Assembly: GCF_002214365.1 (NCBI RefSeq)
Contig: NZ_CP014854.1
Location: 310,001-374,000, forward strand
DNA length: 64,000 nt
Direction of reading: 5' to 3'
Origin: Thermococcus celer Vu 13 = JCM 8558
GTDB taxonomy: Archaea; Methanobacteriota_B; Thermococci; Thermococcales; Thermococcaceae
This document shows, piece after piece, positions 19,298-27,006 of the stretch. How positions within the stretch are numbered: position 1 is the stretch's first letter; the number at the start of each line of letters is the position of its first letter. The notes under the pieces were generated by a model that did not search any database, was not told where the DNA came from, and saw nothing but the letters and a program-made list of their open reading frames with translations. The translations under genes and the position numbers were made by a program.

Positions 19298-20292
19298 ACA
19301 AGACGATAAGGTACCTCATCCTCATCCTCCTCATCCTGACGTTCCTGACCATGCCCCTCACCGTTCCGATGTTCAAGAGCTCCACCGCCTACAGCATGTT
19401 CAACACCGGCTGGGACGGGGTTTCCGGGTTCGCGAGGCTGGCCTATCACAGAGGAAAGACGATAACGCCGATCTTCCAGTCGTTTGATATCGCCGGAGTG
19501 GGGGACCTCGACGGCGTCCTCCTGATAATAGGGCCCAACGTGACGTTCACGGCGGCCGAGATGGAGGGGATAAAGCTCTTCCTGGAAAGGGGAAACACCC
19601 TCTTCATAGCCGACGACTTCGGGACGGGAAACGAGATACTCCGGGCTCTAAACGTGCCGGTTGGGATCTCAAAAGACCCCCTCAGGGATTTCTTCTACGA
19701 CAAAGACGACAGGTTCGTGGTCTCCGTAAGGATAGAAGACCCCATCCTTGCCCGGAACGTTACGGAGATCATCACCAACGAGCCCTCTGCCATAATAGTC
19801 ACAGGAAATGGCGAGGCCTACGCCAGCAAGGTCTCCATGGTGAACTTCCACAGGAGAATGTTTCCACTGCTGACGGAGGTCAGGTACGGGAAGGGAAGGA
19901 TAGTGGTGCTGTCCGACCCGGATGTCCTGACGAACCAGCTCTACGGAGAAAACGAGCCGTTCCTGAGGAACCTGATAGACTACCTCGGCGGGGATAGGTT
20001 TTACATCGACGAGGCCCATCATCCTGATTTCAACCTCTACACCACCGGCACCGTTACGATAACCCGCGTGCTCTCAAGGAGGACGGCTATTGGGTTGATG
20101 CTCCTCATAGCAACGATGATACTGCTGTGGGAAATCGGAGCCTTCGGGATAACGGCACGGTTGACGTCGCGCCTCCTCGCGCGCCTTTTCAATGAAAACG
20201 AAAACGTTGAAGAGGTTGCCCTCCTCCTCGCGGAGGAGAGGGGCTGGGACGAGAAGGAGATAATTGAGATGCTCGAAAGGATGGGTGGTTGA
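19294..20292 (+). CDS. DUF4350-type membrane protein
   Basis: A 332-residue protein with an N-terminal helix (YLILILLILTFLTMPLTVPM), an extracellular alpha/beta domain resembling the GATase-like DUF4350 fold (GDLDGVLLIIGPNVTFTAAE, LFIADDFGTGNEIL, GRIVVLSDPDVLTN), a second helix (IGLMLLIATMILLWEIGAFG) and a short cytoplasmic tail. It overlaps the upstream gene by four bases and ends just before the MoxR start. DUF4350 proteins regularly accompany MoxR/DUF58/DUF4129 in archaea and bacteria. Its biochemical role is not known. Confidence 0.75.
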   Translation: MNKTIRYLILILLILTFLTMPLTVPMFKSSTAYSMFNTGWDGVSGFARLAYHRGKTITPIFQSFDIAGVGDLDGVLLIIGPNVTFTAAEMEGIKLFLERGNTLFIADDFGTGNEILRALNVPVGISKDPLRDFFYDKDDRFVVSVRIEDPILARNVTEIITNEPSAIIVTGNGEAYASKVSMVNFHRRMFPLLTEVRYGKGRIVVLSDPDVLTNQLYGENEPFLRNLIDYLGGDRFYIDEAHHPDFNLYTTGTVTITRVLSRRTAIGLMLLIATMILLWEIGAFGITARLTSRLLARLFNENENVEEVALLLAEERGWDEKEIIEMLERMGG

Positions 20293-20293
20293 T

Positions 20294-21214
20294 ATGATAC
20301 TCGAAAAGATCCAAAAAGAAGTTGGAAAGGCCATTGAGGGCATGGACGACGTGGTCGAGCTCATGACGATAGCCCTGCTGGCGGAGGGACACGTACTCCT
20401 TGAGGGGGTTCCCGGAATAGCCAAGACGACGCTCAGCAAGAACTTCGCGGGAACCCTCGGGCTGAAGTTCTCGAGGATACAGATGACGCCCGACCTCCTC
20501 CCGGCGGACATCCTGGGCCACACGTTCTATGACATGCGCGCGGGCGAGTTCAAGATAAGGAAAGGGCCGATATTCGCCAACGTCGTCCTCGTAGACGAGA
20601 TAAACCGGGCCTCCCCGAAAACGCAATCGGCCCTGCTCGAGGCGATGGAGGAGAAGCAGGTAACCATAGAGGGACTCCCGCTCAAGCTACCGGAACCCTT
20701 CATAGTGCTCGCCACCAGGAACCCCGTTGAGCTGGAGGGTGTCTATGAGCTCCCCACGGCTCAAACGGACCGTTTCATGATGAAGATAGACCTGACTTAC
20801 CTACCGGAGGAGAGCGAGAAGAGGATGCTCCGGAGGAAGAGCCTCGGCGAGTTCTCGAAGGCGAAGCAGGTGGTTCTCGGTACAGAACTCGCGAGGGCAA
20901 GAAGGGAGGCCCAGAAGGTTCACGTCAGCGACGCGATAATCGACTACATCTACGAGATCGTCAAGGCCACGAGACTGGATGAGAGGGTTATACTGGGTGT
21001 CTCACCGAGGGGAGGCGAGCACCTGCTTTATACGGCCAGGGTGAAGGCTTACCTTGAGGGAAGAACCTACGTGATCCCCGATGACGTCAAGTGGCTGGCC
21101 GTTCCAGTGCTCGCCCACAGGATCGTCGTCAAACCCGAGTACGAGGTCGAGGGCGTCAACGGAAAAACTGTGGTCAGAGAAGCTCTCGAGAACGTAGAGG
21201 TGCCGACCGAATGA
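20294..21214 (+). CDS. MoxR-family AAA+ ATPase
   Basis: A 306-residue cytoplasmic ATPase. Walker A is GVPGIAKTTL, Walker B is VVLVDEINRA, the sensor segment is VLATRNPVELEG and the arginine-finger region is LPTAQTDRFMMK, all typical of MoxR. MoxR proteins act as chaperone-like ATPases with partner DUF58/VWA proteins, usually for maturation of envelope or metalloprotein complexes. ATG 20294 follows GGTGGTTGAT. Its stop overlaps the DUF58 start by four bases, supporting a MoxR-DUF58 functional pair. The client is unknown but probably an envelope protein of the same operon. Confidence 0.92.
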   Translation: MILEKIQKEVGKAIEGMDDVVELMTIALLAEGHVLLEGVPGIAKTTLSKNFAGTLGLKFSRIQMTPDLLPADILGHTFYDMRAGEFKIRKGPIFANVVLVDEINRASPKTQSALLEAMEEKQVTIEGLPLKLPEPFIVLATRNPVELEGVYELPTAQTDRFMMKIDLTYLPEESEKRMLRRKSLGEFSKAKQVVLGTELARARREAQKVHVSDAIIDYIYEIVKATRLDERVILGVSPRGGEHLLYTARVKAYLEGRTYVIPDDVKWLAVPVLAHRIVVKPEYEVEGVNGKTVVREALENVEVPTE

Positions 21215-22497
21215 AGCCAGCGGAAGTCATCCTATCCCTTGCCGCGGTGGTCTCGGCAACGGCGTACCTCCTTGCCAGCCCGGCCGTTGCGTTAATCGGG
21301 GTGGTTCTGATGGCCTACTACGCGCTGGCCAGGCTCAGCTTCGAGCCGAGGGTCAGGGTCAGCCGGCGTTTTCCTGCCAGGGGAACGGAGAAGGAACCTT
21401 TAAAGGCCGAGATTCACATTGAAAACGACTCCCCCATCCCCGGCGTATTGAAGATAAGGGAAACCTCCGAGAAGGCCTTTGCAAAGGACCTTAGGGTGGA
21501 GTTGAAACCCGGCGAGAGGAGGTACGTAACCCAGACGATAGTGCCCCAGTCCAAGGGCAGGGTAGACTTGAAGGGTAAAGCGGAGTTCGAGGACGCCCTC
21601 GGCCTGTTCAAGGAGGACGTTAAAGTAGAGGAGCACGGAGGGATAACCGTTTTCCCCTCGCCGGGTAGCATAGGGGAAGCGATGAAAGAGAGGAGGCAGG
21701 TGGAGGCGCTCGCGGAGGCAGAAAAGGCCCTTGGAATCGGCGCGGAAACTTTGGACTTCGAGGAACTCAGGGAGTTCATGCCGGGCGACGATATAATCAG
21801 AGTAGACTGGAAGGCAACGTCAAGACTCCAGACGCTCATAGTCAGGGTGTTCAAGAGGGAGACCCTCGCGGACGTTTATCTCCTGATAAACGTGGCTAAG
21901 GAGTTCAGGAGGGAGATGAGGCCGGGCAGGATCGACTACCTCGTCCTGATAACCTCCCAGTTAACCGCGTACTTCAAGCACTTCGGGCACGCGATCAAAG
22001 TAATAGCTTACGACGATTCCGGCGTCGTCAAAGTGATAGAGAATGCCTCGGATCCCCTGAAGGTGGTGCTGGAACTCGGCCTGAAGGGGGAAAGGGGCCT
22101 GCCCCAGATAACACCCTCACGTTTGTCCCCGAAAAGATCTTCCCTCGGCCGCACCGTCTCAAAGCTCAGGAAGGGAACGGAGGCATCGGGTCCCGTTGCG
22201 GCAGCCATGAAGGTCGAGAGCGGGGCTTACGTCCTTATGGTTGACGATCTCGGCCTCCATCCGGGTGAGATAATCAAAGCGTCACGGATCCTTGACAGGA
22301 AAGGGGCGAAGGCGGTTCTGCTCTACCCCAATCCTGTACTCTTCATGAGCAAGAAAGACCTGACGAAGGAGAAACTCGAAACCCTTTACAGAGCCTACCG
22401 GGAGAGAAAGGAGATGATGAAGAGGGTAATCGGGTGGATAAAGGTCATCGAGGTTGGCCCAAGGGATCTCTTGCCGAAGGTGGTGAGAAAACTATGA
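21211..22497 (+). CDS. DUF58 domain protein, partner of MoxR
   Basis: A 428-residue protein with two N-terminal hydrophobic segments (VILSLAAVVSATAYLLA and AVALIGVVLMAYYALARL), a beta-rich middle and the DUF58 hallmark REFMPGDDIIRVDWKATSR near residues 190-208, followed by a VWA-like alpha/beta region (DVYLLINVAKEF, YVLMVDDLGLHPGE). DUF58 proteins are encoded next to MoxR and are thought to work with it. The start overlaps moxR as ATGA and the end overlaps the next gene in the same way. Confidence 0.9.
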   Translation: MKPAEVILSLAAVVSATAYLLASPAVALIGVVLMAYYALARLSFEPRVRVSRRFPARGTEKEPLKAEIHIENDSPIPGVLKIRETSEKAFAKDLRVELKPGERRYVTQTIVPQSKGRVDLKGKAEFEDALGLFKEDVKVEEHGGITVFPSPGSIGEAMKERRQVEALAEAEKALGIGAETLDFEELREFMPGDDIIRVDWKATSRLQTLIVRVFKRETLADVYLLINVAKEFRREMRPGRIDYLVLITSQLTAYFKHFGHAIKVIAYDDSGVVKVIENASDPLKVVLELGLKGERGLPQITPSRLSPKRSSLGRTVSKLRKGTEASGPVAAAMKVESGAYVLMVDDLGLHPGEIIKASRILDRKGAKAVLLYPNPVLFMSKKDLTKEKLETLYRAYRERKEMMKRVIGWIKVIEVGPRDLLPKVVRKL

Positions 22498-23045
22498 TAG
22501 GGCTGGTGGCTTCCATCCTCGTGGGTGTGGCCCTCCAGAACTACCCCTTCCTCCTGGCCGCCATCCCGTACCTCCTCCGGGTGAAGAGCAGGAACCTGAG
22601 CCTGATGGCGTTCTACGGCTACGTTATCCTGCTCGCCCTCACCCTTCCGGGGGGGTCCATATACAGCTGGGAAGGCATCAAAACGGCGCTCTTCGCCTCC
22701 ACTTCAACCTTCCTTCTTCTCGACGACGTTCTAAGGGGTGTTAGGATAGGGGAGAAAGAGGCGATTATCTCGGGCGTCCTAATAGCATCGGCCTTCAACG
22801 ACTACGCCCTCTCGGTCGCCCTCATCGGGGTTACCCTCTACCTGGCTTATCTGTACTTCGGAAAGGCAGTTTATTACCTCGCGGGATGGCTCGGAGCATC
22901 GGTTATCGCGCTCGCCATGATGAAAGACCAACTTAAAGATCCGGTTGCCCAGACGTTCGTTGTAATCGGTCTCGGGCTGATCCTCCTGATGGTCTCAGAG
23001 AGGAAGAACGTTGAGTTCCTGGAGGTGGGCCTCCGGGAGGAGTGA
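22494..23045 (+). CDS. Polytopic membrane protein of unknown function in the MoxR operon
   Basis: A 183-residue protein with about six hydrophobic segments and very short loops (LVASILVGVALQNYPFLLAA, LMAFYGYVILLALTLPGG, YALSVALIGVTLYLAYLYF, AQTFVVIGLGLILLMVS). ATG 22494 overlaps the DUF58 stop (ATGA). No family is recognised. Its place between DUF58 and the archaeosortase suggests a membrane component of the same system. Confidence 0.7.
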   Translation: MIGLVASILVGVALQNYPFLLAAIPYLLRVKSRNLSLMAFYGYVILLALTLPGGSIYSWEGIKTALFASTSTFLLLDDVLRGVRIGEKEAIISGVLIASAFNDYALSVALIGVTLYLAYLYFGKAVYYLAGWLGASVIALAMMKDQLKDPVAQTFVVIGLGLILLMVSERKNVEFLEVGLREE

Positions 23046-23052
23046 TCGGTTT

Positions 23053-24054
23053 TTGATTTTTTCACTTGCCTTCACCGCTGTCATATTCGCGGTTTACAGA
23101 ACTCCCGCCGTTCTGTACCTTGGATTGCTCTACTCGATGATGGTGGCATTCTCACGCGGGGGACTCGTGGAGAGAACGCTAAGGCTGGACGCTCAGGCCC
23201 TCGTTGGGGTTCTTTTAGTGGGAATCTCCCCGGTATTCCTGATCGTCCGATTTGGCGAGTACCCGAGTCCCGCGACATTTCATGCGCTGGTTCTAATAGG
23301 GGTATCACTTCTGCTCTTCGAGGTGAAGAGCACAGCGCTACCGAACTCAATCGCGCTCTTCGAAATGTCTTTAGCTGCGGCCGTCAGAATGGAGATTGTA
23401 GAGAGGATGATAGCCAGAACGAGCGACATCTTCGTCGGGGCCACCTCCCACCTCGTGCGCTGGATGGTGGATCTATCCGGCATCCCAATCAAGGTTCAGG
23501 GCAACACGGCGGTGGTGAGGAACAGCATCATCGTGATAGGGTCCGGTTGTTCGGGACTCGACGCCTTTGTGCTCTACCTCCTGGCCTCCACGCTCCTGAT
23601 ACTCCTGAGGAAATCGGGAAGAGAGGAGGCGGCGCTTCTCCTCCTGGGTGCCGTCGGGATAATCCCCCTGAACGCCCTCAGAATATTCACGCTCCTCGTC
23701 GTAGGCTACCACAGCGGGATCCCCTTCCTCGAGCTCTTCCACTCCCACCTCGGCGACCTGCCCCATCGCCACGTTGCCGCTGAAGAACGGAACTTGGGAA
23801 ACATGAATGTCCGCATAGTAGTCAACGTGCCCATCCTGGACATCGTTCCATGTGTTGCCCGAGACGTCCGTCATGGCGTCGAGCACGTCACTTCCTCCAA
23901 GCTCCCAGGCTTCGTTATTAGTCTGATTAACCCTCACCACTCCGAGCGCAACCCGTATGAAGCCATCCCCCAGAGATCCGAGCTCATCCTTCTTGATCCT
24001 TACCTCAACTGCATTGTGAGTGGTCGAGGCGGCGAATTCATCAGCGGAAGTTGA
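23053..24054 (+). CDS. Archaeosortase/exosortase-family transpeptidase, C-terminus replaced by unrelated sequence
   Basis: Polytopic membrane protein. With start TTG 23053 the exosortase-superfamily catalytic set is visible: C166 in IGSGCSGLDAF, R210 in NALRIF, and H230/H232 in LFHSHLGD. These enzymes cleave and transfer proteins with C-terminal sorting tails at the outer membrane face. After HSHLGD (about 23757) the natural last helix is absent; the frame runs about 99 codons through DNA antisense to a broken secreted-protein gene, giving a hydrophilic tail. The gene may therefore be inactive. It follows the membrane gene by seven bases. Start and subfamily are uncertain; the archaeosortase assignment is firm. 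Confidence 0.75.
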   Translation: MIFSLAFTAVIFAVYRTPAVLYLGLLYSMMVAFSRGGLVERTLRLDAQALVGVLLVGISPVFLIVRFGEYPSPATFHALVLIGVSLLLFEVKSTALPNSIALFEMSLAAAVRMEIVERMIARTSDIFVGATSHLVRWMVDLSGIPIKVQGNTAVVRNSIIVIGSGCSGLDAFVLYLLASTLLILLRKSGREEAALLLLGAVGIIPLNALRIFTLLVVGYHSGIPFLELFHSHLGDLPHRHVAAEERNLGNMNVRIVVNVPILDIVPCVARDVRHGVEHVTSSKLPGFVISLINPHHSERNPYEAIPQRSELILLDPYLNCIVSGRGGEFISGS

Positions 24055-24371
24055 GATATCGTTCCATATTCCATTGAGGAGATCGAGTCCGTAGTACCTC
24101 GTTCCGTCCCCACCCTGAACCTTAACCCACGTGTCATCTGAACTTGAAGCGCTGAAGTTGGCGAGGTTAATGGTCAGCTGACGCTCCCAGTAAGCGCTGG
24201 AGTTTAGCTCTGTCTCCGCGTGGTAGGCAAAGTAATGAATTCCAGTGCCGTCATGGTCTGTGTCTATGGTTATCATGGATCCCCATCCACGGTTATGGAG
24301 TGAGCACTAACCAGCCCAACCACTCCCCCAAGCACCAGCAAACTTAGGAGCAGGACGATCACCCTCCTCAT
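23758..24371 (-). pseudogene. Broken secreted protein gene (signal peptide plus beta-rich domain)
   Basis: ATG 24371 starts a clear signal peptide (MRRVIVLLLSLLVLGGVVG followed by LVSAHS) and then ITVDGDP, after which the frame stops (TGA at about 24276). Sense resumes in another frame at ITIDTDHDGTGIHYFAYHAE and continues through RQLTINLANFSASSSDDTW, RVALGVVRVNQTNNEAWELG and FFSGNVAMG, ending at about 23760 where the archaeosortase coding sequence begins on the other strand. The gene thus lacks a piece near its 5' end and has lost its 3' end. It looks like a secreted surface or carbohydrate-related protein; the family is not certain. Confidence 0.75.
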
Positions 24372-24605
24372 GGTACTCCCCCGGGATAGCCACATACTAA
24401 GGTTTGCAGCGAATCCGTTATTGGACTTCAGGTGTATGTATCACTCACAGAGATATGCATATTTTAGCGTATAAAGATTTCCGGGAAATTGAAAGCCAAG
24501 CTAAGGCCATCTCCCATTATACCGAACTTTCTTAACCTATGGCCCCTCCAGACAATATCACAACCGTTTTAAGCCTTCCAGCTCATACCCAATGAAGGTG
24601 ATGAA

Positions 24606-25595
24606 ATGGACCTGAAAAGGCACTGGGATCTGCTCACGATAATCGCTCTCTCACTCCTCCTGGACCTTCTCATCGCCCTCTATCCAGACAGCATCCTGAG
24701 AAAAGCCCTCGGCCTGGCCTTCGTCCTCTTCTTCCCGGGTTACGTCTTCGTGACGGCCCTCTTCCCCAACAGACCGGAACTCGACAACCTCGAGCGGCTG
24801 GCCCTGAGCTTCGGGCTGAGCATAGCGATAGTCCCGCTGATAGGCCTCGGCCTCAACTACACGCCCTGGGGGATACGGCTCCTCCCGATACTCGTCAGCC
24901 TCACGGTCTTCAACATCGTCCTTGCCATCGCCGCCATCTACCGCCGTTCGAAAGCGTTCGATCCGTGGATCCCCTGGATAACGCTGGAAAAAATAAAGGA
25001 AGAGCTCGAGTGGGAAAAGGCGAGCAAACTCGATAAGGCTTTGATGGTGATCCTCATCATCGCCATCCTGACCTCCATCGGAACCCTAACCTATATCATC
25101 ACCCATCCCAAGCCCGGAGAGGCGTTCACGGAGTTCTACATCCTCGGCCCGAACGGGAAGGCCGCCGATTACCCGACGGACCTCAAGGTTGGGGAAAACG
25201 GGACGGTCATAATCGGGATAGTCAACCACGAGCACAGGAACGTAACTTACTATGTCCAGGTCTGGCTGGTGAACCTAACTTGGGACAACGAGACCAACAC
25301 CACGCTGATCCACGGGATGTACCCGATGCCAGGCTGGTTCAACGTGACGCTACCGCCGGTTCCCGTAAACATAGAGGGCAACTGGACGCCGCAGTTCGAG
25401 AGGAACTACACCTTCAGCATCGATAGGCCTGGCAAATGGCAGGTCTGGTTCCTCCTCTTCAAGGACACACAGCCGGAGCTTCCGCCGGCCCCACCGGACG
25501 GAAACTACGCGGAAACGGATGCGAGGAACCTCATCCTCGAGGCGGTAAACGGAACGATCCAGAGCCTCAAGCTCAACGTGAACGTGAGGCCTTGA
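24606..25595 (+). CDS. DUF1616-family membrane protein
   Basis: A 329-residue protein with four N-terminal helices (LTIIALSLLLDLLIALYP; LGLAFVLFFPGYVFVTALF; LALSFGLSIAIVPLIGLGL; LLPILVSLTVFNIVLAIAA), a fifth at about residue 150 (ALMVILIIAILTSIGTLTYI) and an extracellular beta-rich C-terminal domain with many N-x-S/T sites. The FFPGY motif and layout match DUF1616. The family is common near archaeal surface glycoprotein, archaeosortase and glycosylation genes; its function is unknown. A TATA-like GTTTTAAGCC (about 24568) and AAGGTGATG precede the start. Nothing else was seen in 24372-24567 beyond A+T-rich promoter-like DNA for both directions. Confidence 0.8.
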   Translation: MDLKRHWDLLTIIALSLLLDLLIALYPDSILRKALGLAFVLFFPGYVFVTALFPNRPELDNLERLALSFGLSIAIVPLIGLGLNYTPWGIRLLPILVSLTVFNIVLAIAAIYRRSKAFDPWIPWITLEKIKEELEWEKASKLDKALMVILIIAILTSIGTLTYIITHPKPGEAFTEFYILGPNGKAADYPTDLKVGENGTVIIGIVNHEHRNVTYYVQVWLVNLTWDNETNTTLIHGMYPMPGWFNVTLPPVPVNIEGNWTPQFERNYTFSIDRPGKWQVWFLLFKDTQPELPPAPPDGNYAETDARNLILEAVNGTIQSLKLNVNVRP

Positions 25596-25663
25596 TCCTT
25601 TCATATTGTTTGGGTTGTAAAATTATTCTTACGCCCCTATCCAGATATTACTTGAGCCAATAG

Positions 25664-25717
25664 AAAAATTTATAAGCGTTCACACCGCAATTCCCCTGCC
25701 TACTATAATGGGTGGTG
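25664..25717 (+). promoter_or_regulatory. Promoter and ribosome site of the TasA-like gene
   Basis: AAAAATTTATAAGC (25664-25676) is a strong archaeal TATA box with an A-rich element before it. GGTGGTG (25711-25717) lies five bases before ATG 25722. The spacing gives an untranslated leader of about 25 bases and suggests high expression, as expected for a structural surface protein. Confidence 0.6.
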
Positions 25718-25721
25718 CTGT

Positions 25722-26321
25722 ATGAGATATGGGGAAGTTGTGGCGATAGGTGTTCTCGCGGCCCTGCTGGTGCTGGCGGGTCCGGCCAGGTCCATCTTTA
25801 CCGACGTTGCGCACTCCAACGACAACGAGTTCGGCTCGGGCGAATTTGACATAGCCGTAAGCAAGGACGGAAGCAGATTCTACAACGACATCAAGCTTTT
25901 CGAGTTCTCCAACCTGAAACCCGGCGACGAGAGGACGTTCACCTTTTACATCAAGAACCGCGGTGACGTCGACGTCTCCAGGATGACCATGACCCTCAAC
26001 ATCAAAGACCTCGAGGAGAGCGAGATGAGTCCGGCCGAGAAGGCCGTCGACAACACCACCGACGTCGGGGAGCTGAGCAAGTACCTTGTAGTGAACGAGC
26101 TGAGGGTGCATCTCGGAGACCAGTCCTGGACCGTCGATTCCACGAAGGGGAGGACCCTAAGCGAACTGAGCGGAGTGGAAATAGGGCTCCTCAATGGGCA
26201 ACAACTCAAAGCCGGCGAGGTTCTGGAGGTCGAGGTGACGGTGAGGTTCTCGGAGAAGGCCGGCAACGAGTGTCAAACTGACAAAACCATCGTCGATATG
26301 GAACTCAACGCGGAGCAGTGA
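25722..26321 (+). CDS. TasA/camelysin-like secreted fibre protein (SipW-type signal)
   Basis: A 199-residue secreted protein. The signal segment (VVAIGVLAALLVLAGPARS) is followed by IFTDVAHSNDNEFGSGEFDI, the pattern of the TasA/CalY family in which the mature N-terminus precedes an early N-E-F segment. The rest is a jelly-roll-like beta domain (FEFSNLKPGDERTFTFYIKN, DVDVSRMTMTLNIKD). TasA forms biofilm fibres in Bacillus, and archaeal relatives form bundling pili by donor-strand exchange, so a structural fibre subunit is likely. No SipW-type signal peptidase is nearby. It is monocistronic and convergent with the DUF2283 gene. Confidence 0.75.
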   Translation: MRYGEVVAIGVLAALLVLAGPARSIFTDVAHSNDNEFGSGEFDIAVSKDGSRFYNDIKLFEFSNLKPGDERTFTFYIKNRGDVDVSRMTMTLNIKDLEESEMSPAEKAVDNTTDVGELSKYLVVNELRVHLGDQSWTVDSTKGRTLSELSGVEIGLLNGQQLKAGEVLEVEVTVRFSEKAGNECQTDKTIVDMELNAEQ

Positions 26322-26333
26322 ACTTTTAGTTTC

Positions 26334-26696
26334 TTAAATCATTGCATTCAACGGGGGAAGCCCCTGATTACTGGCCAGGAATTCCATTCTATCCTCCTTC
26401 CTTTTTCCCCTTTGGAGAACCCGGATAAAAACTGATACGACTATCTCCTTCTTTCCGATTTTGATCTCGGCGTGAAGTTCCTGAACGCCCCGGGAAAGCA
26501 GATATGGGCTGATCTTGAATTTTTTAGAGGCATCCAGTATCTCAAGACCGATAACTCCAGGCTTGGAGTTAATCCTACCCATATCAAGAATTATATCATC
26601 CAGCTGGACGGAGCTTTCGTATTCCCCCTCGGGGATCCTCACAAAGAGGGAATCCCCCAGCGGGTCGTAATCGATTATCTTCACATTATTTTCCAT
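26334..26696 (-). CDS. DUF2283 domain protein, probable antitoxin
   Basis: A 120-residue protein. The segment VKIIDYDPLGDSLFVRIPEG and the later GVIGLEILDASKKF match the small beta-rich DUF2283 domain, which commonly pairs with DUF4258 genes. The C-terminal 50 residues are a Lys/Arg-rich beta/helical extension. Its start overlaps the DUF4258 frame by 11 bases. A role as antitoxin to the upstream gene is inferred from pairing; no biochemical role is established. Confidence 0.7.
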   Translation of the reverse strand: MENNVKIIDYDPLGDSLFVRIPEGEYESSVQLDDIILDMGRINSKPGVIGLEILDASKKFKISPYLLSRGVQELHAEIKIGKKEIVVSVFIRVLQRGKRKEDRMEFLASNQGLPPLNAMI

Positions 26697-27006
26697 CTTC
26701 CCTCATCCTCCGTCTCTTCTCCTGCAGGTACGCTGTTATTAGAGTCAGGCGGACTTTACTTTTAAACTGTCGGGCTTTAACCACGATCACTAAATCCTTG
26801 TCTCCGTCTAACGAATAATAAAGGAGGAACTTCTCCCCGATCTCATCCTGCTGAATTATCCCCACGATCCCCTGGGGATTAGTGAACACCCTTCGTATCC
26901 AGTCGTGGGGAATATCCCTGCCAGCCAGGCGATTTTGAAAATGAACGGTTTCTATGAACTCAACGTTCTTTGAATGGATGAGTTTCATGAGCTGATAGGG
27001 ATTCAT
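26686..27006 (-). CDS. DUF4258 domain protein, probable toxin
   Basis: A 106-residue basic protein. FIETVHFQNRLAGRDIPHDW with KFLLYYSLDGDKDLVIVVKA fits DUF4258, a small domain with a conserved His near the N-terminus (VHFQNR) that resembles RelE-like toxins in size and arrangement. GAGGGCGG precedes ATG 27006 and a TATA-like CTTTTTTAAGATT (minus strand, about 27036-27045) lies upstream. The order, toxin first then DUF2283, is the usual one. Toxicity is an inference. Confidence 0.65.
   Translation of the reverse strand: MNPYQLMKLIHSKNVEFIETVHFQNRLAGRDIPHDWIRRVFTNPQGIVGIIQQDEIGEKFLLYYSLDGDKDLVIVVKARQFKSKVRLTLITAYLQEKRRRMREDGK

Follow-up and report, generated by a model that had tools for sequence, protein, structure and literature searches.

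How does an archaeosortase gene come to run head-on into a broken gene for a secreted protein, and what were the two genes to each other before the break? The question is raised by a locus of Thermococcus celer Vu 13, within a window of 64,000 nt (the whole stretch of DNA analysed; C1:310001-374000) from a one-contig genome of 1.87 Mb that is 99.9% complete. The locus was compared with 60 further genomes of the genus, the window species being represented by one genome. A scan of genome contigs added no locus to these, its two matches being already among them. We regard it, with high confidence, as a recently decayed pair of an archaeosortase and its VPFF-CTERM substrate, from a subfamily that has no name. 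The locus contains:

20264..21214, + strand: MoxR-type AAA ATPase, first gene of a conserved module (PF07726, 202.7 bits; 72-87% identical in relatives)
21211..22497, + strand: DUF58 protein (PF01882; syntenic in relatives)
22494..23045, + strand: u203, small uncharacterised membrane-type protein encoded just ahead of the enzyme (at the same position in relatives, with 35-58% identity)
23035..23037, + strand: GGG in place of the enzyme's start codon, which is GTG or TTG in relatives (start regions compared at the DNA level)
23053..23760, + strand: archaeosortase remnant, 236 codons, last helix missing (PF09721, TIGR04178; alignment with 13 orthologues)
23760..23761, no strand: junction of the deletion removing the 3′ ends of both convergent genes, 151 bp versus G002 (alignment to G002)
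23764..24276, - strand: what remains of the convergent gene for a secreted, Glucodextran_C/DOMON-like protein (171 residues aligned at 56% identity with the intact G002 protein)
24276..24277, no strand: junction of the second deletion, 235 nt versus G002 (alignment to G002)
24273..24371, - strand: signal-peptide fragment of the convergent gene, MRRVIV...HSITVDGDP-stop (translation: MRRVIVLLLSLLVLGGVVGLVSAHSITVDGDP-stop)
24606..25595, + strand: DUF1616 membrane protein, conserved far border of the cassette (PF07760, 289.6 bits; in 45 of 61 genomes)

The exosortase/archaeosortase family is characterized by conserved Cys, Arg and His motifs, and all of them are kept in the remnant (Cys, 23548-23550; Arg, 23680-23682; His, 23740-23742 and 23746-23748), which also passes the curated cut-offs of PF09721 (52.4 bits versus 25.7) and TIGR04178 (39.4 versus 23). 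An orthologue at the same locus was found in 13 of the 60 congeneric genomes (52-67% identity), and GSGCSGLD, NALRI and HSHLGD are common to the window enzyme and all 13. The first-pass annotation had claimed that the frame loses its last helix after HSHLGD and enters antisense sequence, a claim that relatives with the same C-terminus and a functional neighbour would speak against. The comparison bore it out. The profile match of the window enzyme ends at the His motif, at 236 of 254 (PF09721) and 76 of 97 (TIGR04178), while intact orthologues reach 250-253 and 91 of 97. In all 13, HSH[LI]GD is followed by a conserved helix (typically LMFVAYVFLYWWWV) and then by a basic tail, and the neighbouring gene is intact in G002. 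After HSHLGDL the enzyme frame (23761..24054, +) reads the antisense of the minus-strand gene up to a stop at 24052-24054; the foreign tail noted earlier is thus real, with its length corrected from about 99 to 97 residues. Within it, a single stretch of 19 residues is moderately hydrophobic (Kyte-Doolittle mean, 1.6). This extension is a by-product without function, not a new domain or protein, and no homologue of it is expected.

One lesion had not been listed before: where the enzyme's start is conserved as GTG/TTG, the window has GGG. The next candidate start is TTG 23053, from which translation could begin. Only 3 of 62 otherwise invariant positions were changed in the window enzyme, none of them in the catalytic motifs, and intact orthologues showed 0 to 8 such changes. 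With so few changes in the enzyme body, the loss at this locus looks recent. A search by sequence for a homologue of the enzyme with a solved structure found none, and an AlphaFold2 model of the intact L049 enzyme, built from three input sequences, was set aside at a mean pLDDT of 43.8.

The convergent gene survives in two frames. Its second-frame remnant reads MITIDTD...SQVPFFSGNVAM (24276 to 23764) and ends in VPFFSGNVAM, the hydrophobic and RR tail being lost. In G002, on the other hand, the partner is an intact 299-aa secreted homologue lying 17 bp from the enzyme gene and ending SQVPFFSNNVAMAALTFLLVLGAVWFFRRQ (SQVPFFS, hydrophobic stretch, RRQ). Aligning the window to this intact locus defined the lost stretch as 151 bp, running from the final 25 codons of the enzyme with their stop, through the spacer between the genes, to the hydrophobic/basic tail of the partner. 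This single gap accounts for both facing truncations, and a separate gap of 235 nt accounts for the 5′ piece that the minus-strand gene had been reported to lack along with its 3′ end; both sizes are relative to G002, the best-matching locus, and the true ancestor may differ somewhat. Because 235 is 3x78+1, the frame is shifted right after the partner's signal peptide. Repeats near both junctions are short and look like chance.

The first-pass annotation had left the choice between a deletion and an inversion, as opposed to point decay. The deletion stands, and an inversion is not needed. An inversion or translocation could likewise bring two facing truncations to one point, yet same-family partner genes keep this position and strand next to the intact enzyme in G002, and next to a GH57 gene in five other relatives, and the flanking gene order is unchanged. 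An inverted or translocated join was rejected because gene order and strands match those of the relatives; we give it almost no credence.

The order MoxR, DUF58, u203, archaeosortase, [convergent gene(s)], DUF1616 is the same in the window and in enzyme-bearing relatives. At least one convergent, opposite-strand gene was found between the archaeosortase and DUF1616 in 11 of the 13 enzyme loci, some of which are cut by short contigs. The MoxR-type ATPase starts about 7 codons later in relatives than in the window. In G016 the module's DUF58 gene is split by a frame change with a TGA inside (L096:2233-3512). A TasA/camelysin-like (PF12389) secreted protein adjoins DUF1616 (25722-26321, +) and is kept beside the module in several relatives. 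Beyond it lie two small overlapping minus-strand genes (26334-27006, -), which may resemble a DUF2283/DUF4258-type pair. Rfam gave no match at 22000-26000.

Clients of archaeosortase A carry a tripartite C-terminal anchoring signal (PMC7157517), and the VPFF tails are read as putative anchoring signals by analogy with that system. Such a signal is intact in G002 and other relatives; in the window partner, VPFFS is kept and the rest is gone. A profile of the tail (VPFF[S/G], hydrophobic stretch, RR) was built from eight tails. VPFF-type tails (E<=1.1e-5) were present in all 13 genomes with an intact enzyme and in none of the 47 without. The tailed neighbours in relatives include GH57 proteins with CBM53, about 1,230 aa (amylopullulanase-like), and Glucodextran_C-like, glycan-binding-like proteins. 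The convergent partner is therefore best seen as probably the enzyme's substrate. The first-pass annotation had missed this relationship: the two genes are very probably enzyme and substrate, and the piece lost from the neighbour its sorting tail.

The decay might be real and the convergent gene a mere neighbour that the enzyme never served. Two MAG loci (L037, L043) do carry the enzyme without an adjacent partner; tailed proteins are encoded elsewhere in both genomes, however, and the shared tripartite tail with convergent placement in the other 11 loci, together with the 13-to-0 co-occurrence, also speaks against chance neighbourhood. We consider it improbable. The pairing of tail and enzyme is not perfect, given that VPLFS tails at about 1e-4 occur in 3 of the 47 enzyme-less genomes (G038, G043 and G049), two of which are under 90% complete. 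The VPLFS-type tails of these three genomes, in which no archaeosortase of this kind was detected, end in RR (L065, L066 and L067). Proteins with VPLFS tails are possibly orphan clients or served by another enzyme.

For the enzyme-client pair, a mechanism can be proposed. By analogy with the archaeosortase family, the targets of the relatives' enzyme would be secreted proteins whose C-terminus combines V-P-F-F-[S/G] with a hydrophobic stretch and RR; the enzyme would cut them close to the motif and leave them attached to the cell surface. The cargo would be an alpha-glucan kit, namely a glycan-binding-like protein, often with a GH57 amylopullulanase-like enzyme, both convergent to the archaeosortase. 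The window lineage has suffered two deletions: one of about 151 bp versus G002, which took away the final helix of the enzyme, the spacer and the hydrophobic/basic end of its partner, and one of about 235 nt, which frameshifted the partner just past the signal peptide. The start codon normally used by the enzyme has been lost as well. Apart from the truncated partner, neither the tail profile nor a DNA pattern for VPFF revealed a VPFF C-terminal tail in the window genome; the DNA pattern has five further matches, all of them outside C-terminal tails. The window enzyme is thus left without a client.

The deletions and the start change are seen in the comparison with relatives; as to function, we infer from these lesions that enzyme and client are both very probably non-functional now. 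The first 236 codons, with catalytic residues and frame intact, may still be expressed or retain residual activity. It could be argued further that the truncated enzyme still works as a shortened archaeosortase, or as one re-tailed with the 97 antisense residues, since it retains the Cys, Arg and His motifs along with most invariant positions and its tail offers a moderately hydrophobic stretch. But the family profile includes the missing helix and every orthologue has it, the tail is antisense to a pseudogene, the enzyme lacks its usual start codon, and no tailed client remains in the genome. A working enzyme is therefore very unlikely, and decay of the pair remains the preferred reading.

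Loss of the enzyme was also seen outside the window species. MoxR-DUF58-u203-DUF1616 without the enzyme was found in 10 other genomes. Two of these (G026 and G028) hold an N-terminal remnant of the enzyme between u203 and DUF1616 (SDGFFLCSLAFTTILFSVYRS in G026 versus SDRFLIFSLAFTAVIFAVYRT in the window), with scores reached by 0 of 300 shuffles for each of four query enzymes. In the enzyme-less G013, G016 and G025 no enzyme remnant was detectable. In a quick tree of the module, enzyme-bearing and enzyme-less loci were intermixed, with a minimum of four changes; support is weak at several forks, among them the one that places the window. The ten module loci without the enzyme, two of them with remnants, indicate that the cassette was lost repeatedly.

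These losses also bear on the assembly. With a single genome of the species compared, the strain might be intact and about 150 bp have been dropped in assembly. Against this, one gene pair carries three separate lesions (the 3′ deletion, the 235-nt deletion and the lost start codon), the same cassette was lost in other genomes too, and an assembly slip would not remove every other VPFF-tailed protein from the genome. An assembly error thus has little to recommend it compared with genuine decay.

Taken together, it is likely that the intact version in the 13 relatives represents an unnamed subfamily of archaeosortases that has a VPFF[S/G]-CTERM signal of its own and is devoted to the display of alpha-glucan-using proteins on Thermococcus cells. 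Lying between u203 and DUF1616, it would form an accessory cassette subject to repeated loss, with the window as a natural double knock-out caught early. The window copy itself is ordinary gene decay; the interest lies in the relatives' unnamed enzyme-tail pair and its repeated loss. The decay brings to light a pairing of enzyme and tail that no NCBIfam model covers, and it provides, within one genus, a natural loss series of intact, decaying, remnant and absent states. The pairing gives a testable list of clients (GH57 amylopullulanase-like and glycan-binding-like surface proteins) and makes the anchoring of secreted hydrolases in Thermococcales approachable by genetics.

Among known systems, the intact enzyme does not reach the cut-off of any NCBIfam subfamily, and none of the NCBIfam sorting models matched the tested VPFF-tailed proteins at cut-off. 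In the literature searched, which Haft et al. 2012 lay outside, no description of a Thermococcus VPFF enzyme subfamily was found. The best-scoring named model for both the window and the intact enzyme is archaeosortase C (TIGR03762), the PEF-CTERM enzyme, but the scores (37.9 for the window, 45.4 for intact G002) are below its 100-bit cut-off and the tail motif differs. The second archaeosortase of the window genome is ArtF (TIGR04293, 245 bits), a thermococcal member of the same superfamily that is intact and keeps a helix after His; unlike the enzyme studied here, it is 165 aa long and lies at another locus with other neighbours. This ArtF lies near a secreted protein ending SEGVPEFPFLEPVIDEVMKALNL (L085:1477-2895; also L100, L101, L102 and L103). 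Homologues of that protein near other ArtF genes end in VPEFPFL followed by a few non-hydrophobic residues, so that the motif is PEF-like but has no membrane segment. CGP-CTERM proteins of Thermococcales are likewise secreted proteins with a C-terminal motif and membrane segment, the motif there being Cys-Gly-Pro (PMC4870337). Archaeosortase A/PGF-CTERM of Haloferax volcanii (PMC7157517) resembles the present system in having a membrane archaeosortase and clients with a motif, a hydrophobic stretch and basic residues. It differs in that the motif is PGF there and VPFF[S/G] here, where the ArtA model is not fitted, the clients are convergent to the enzyme, and the window copy is broken in both partners.
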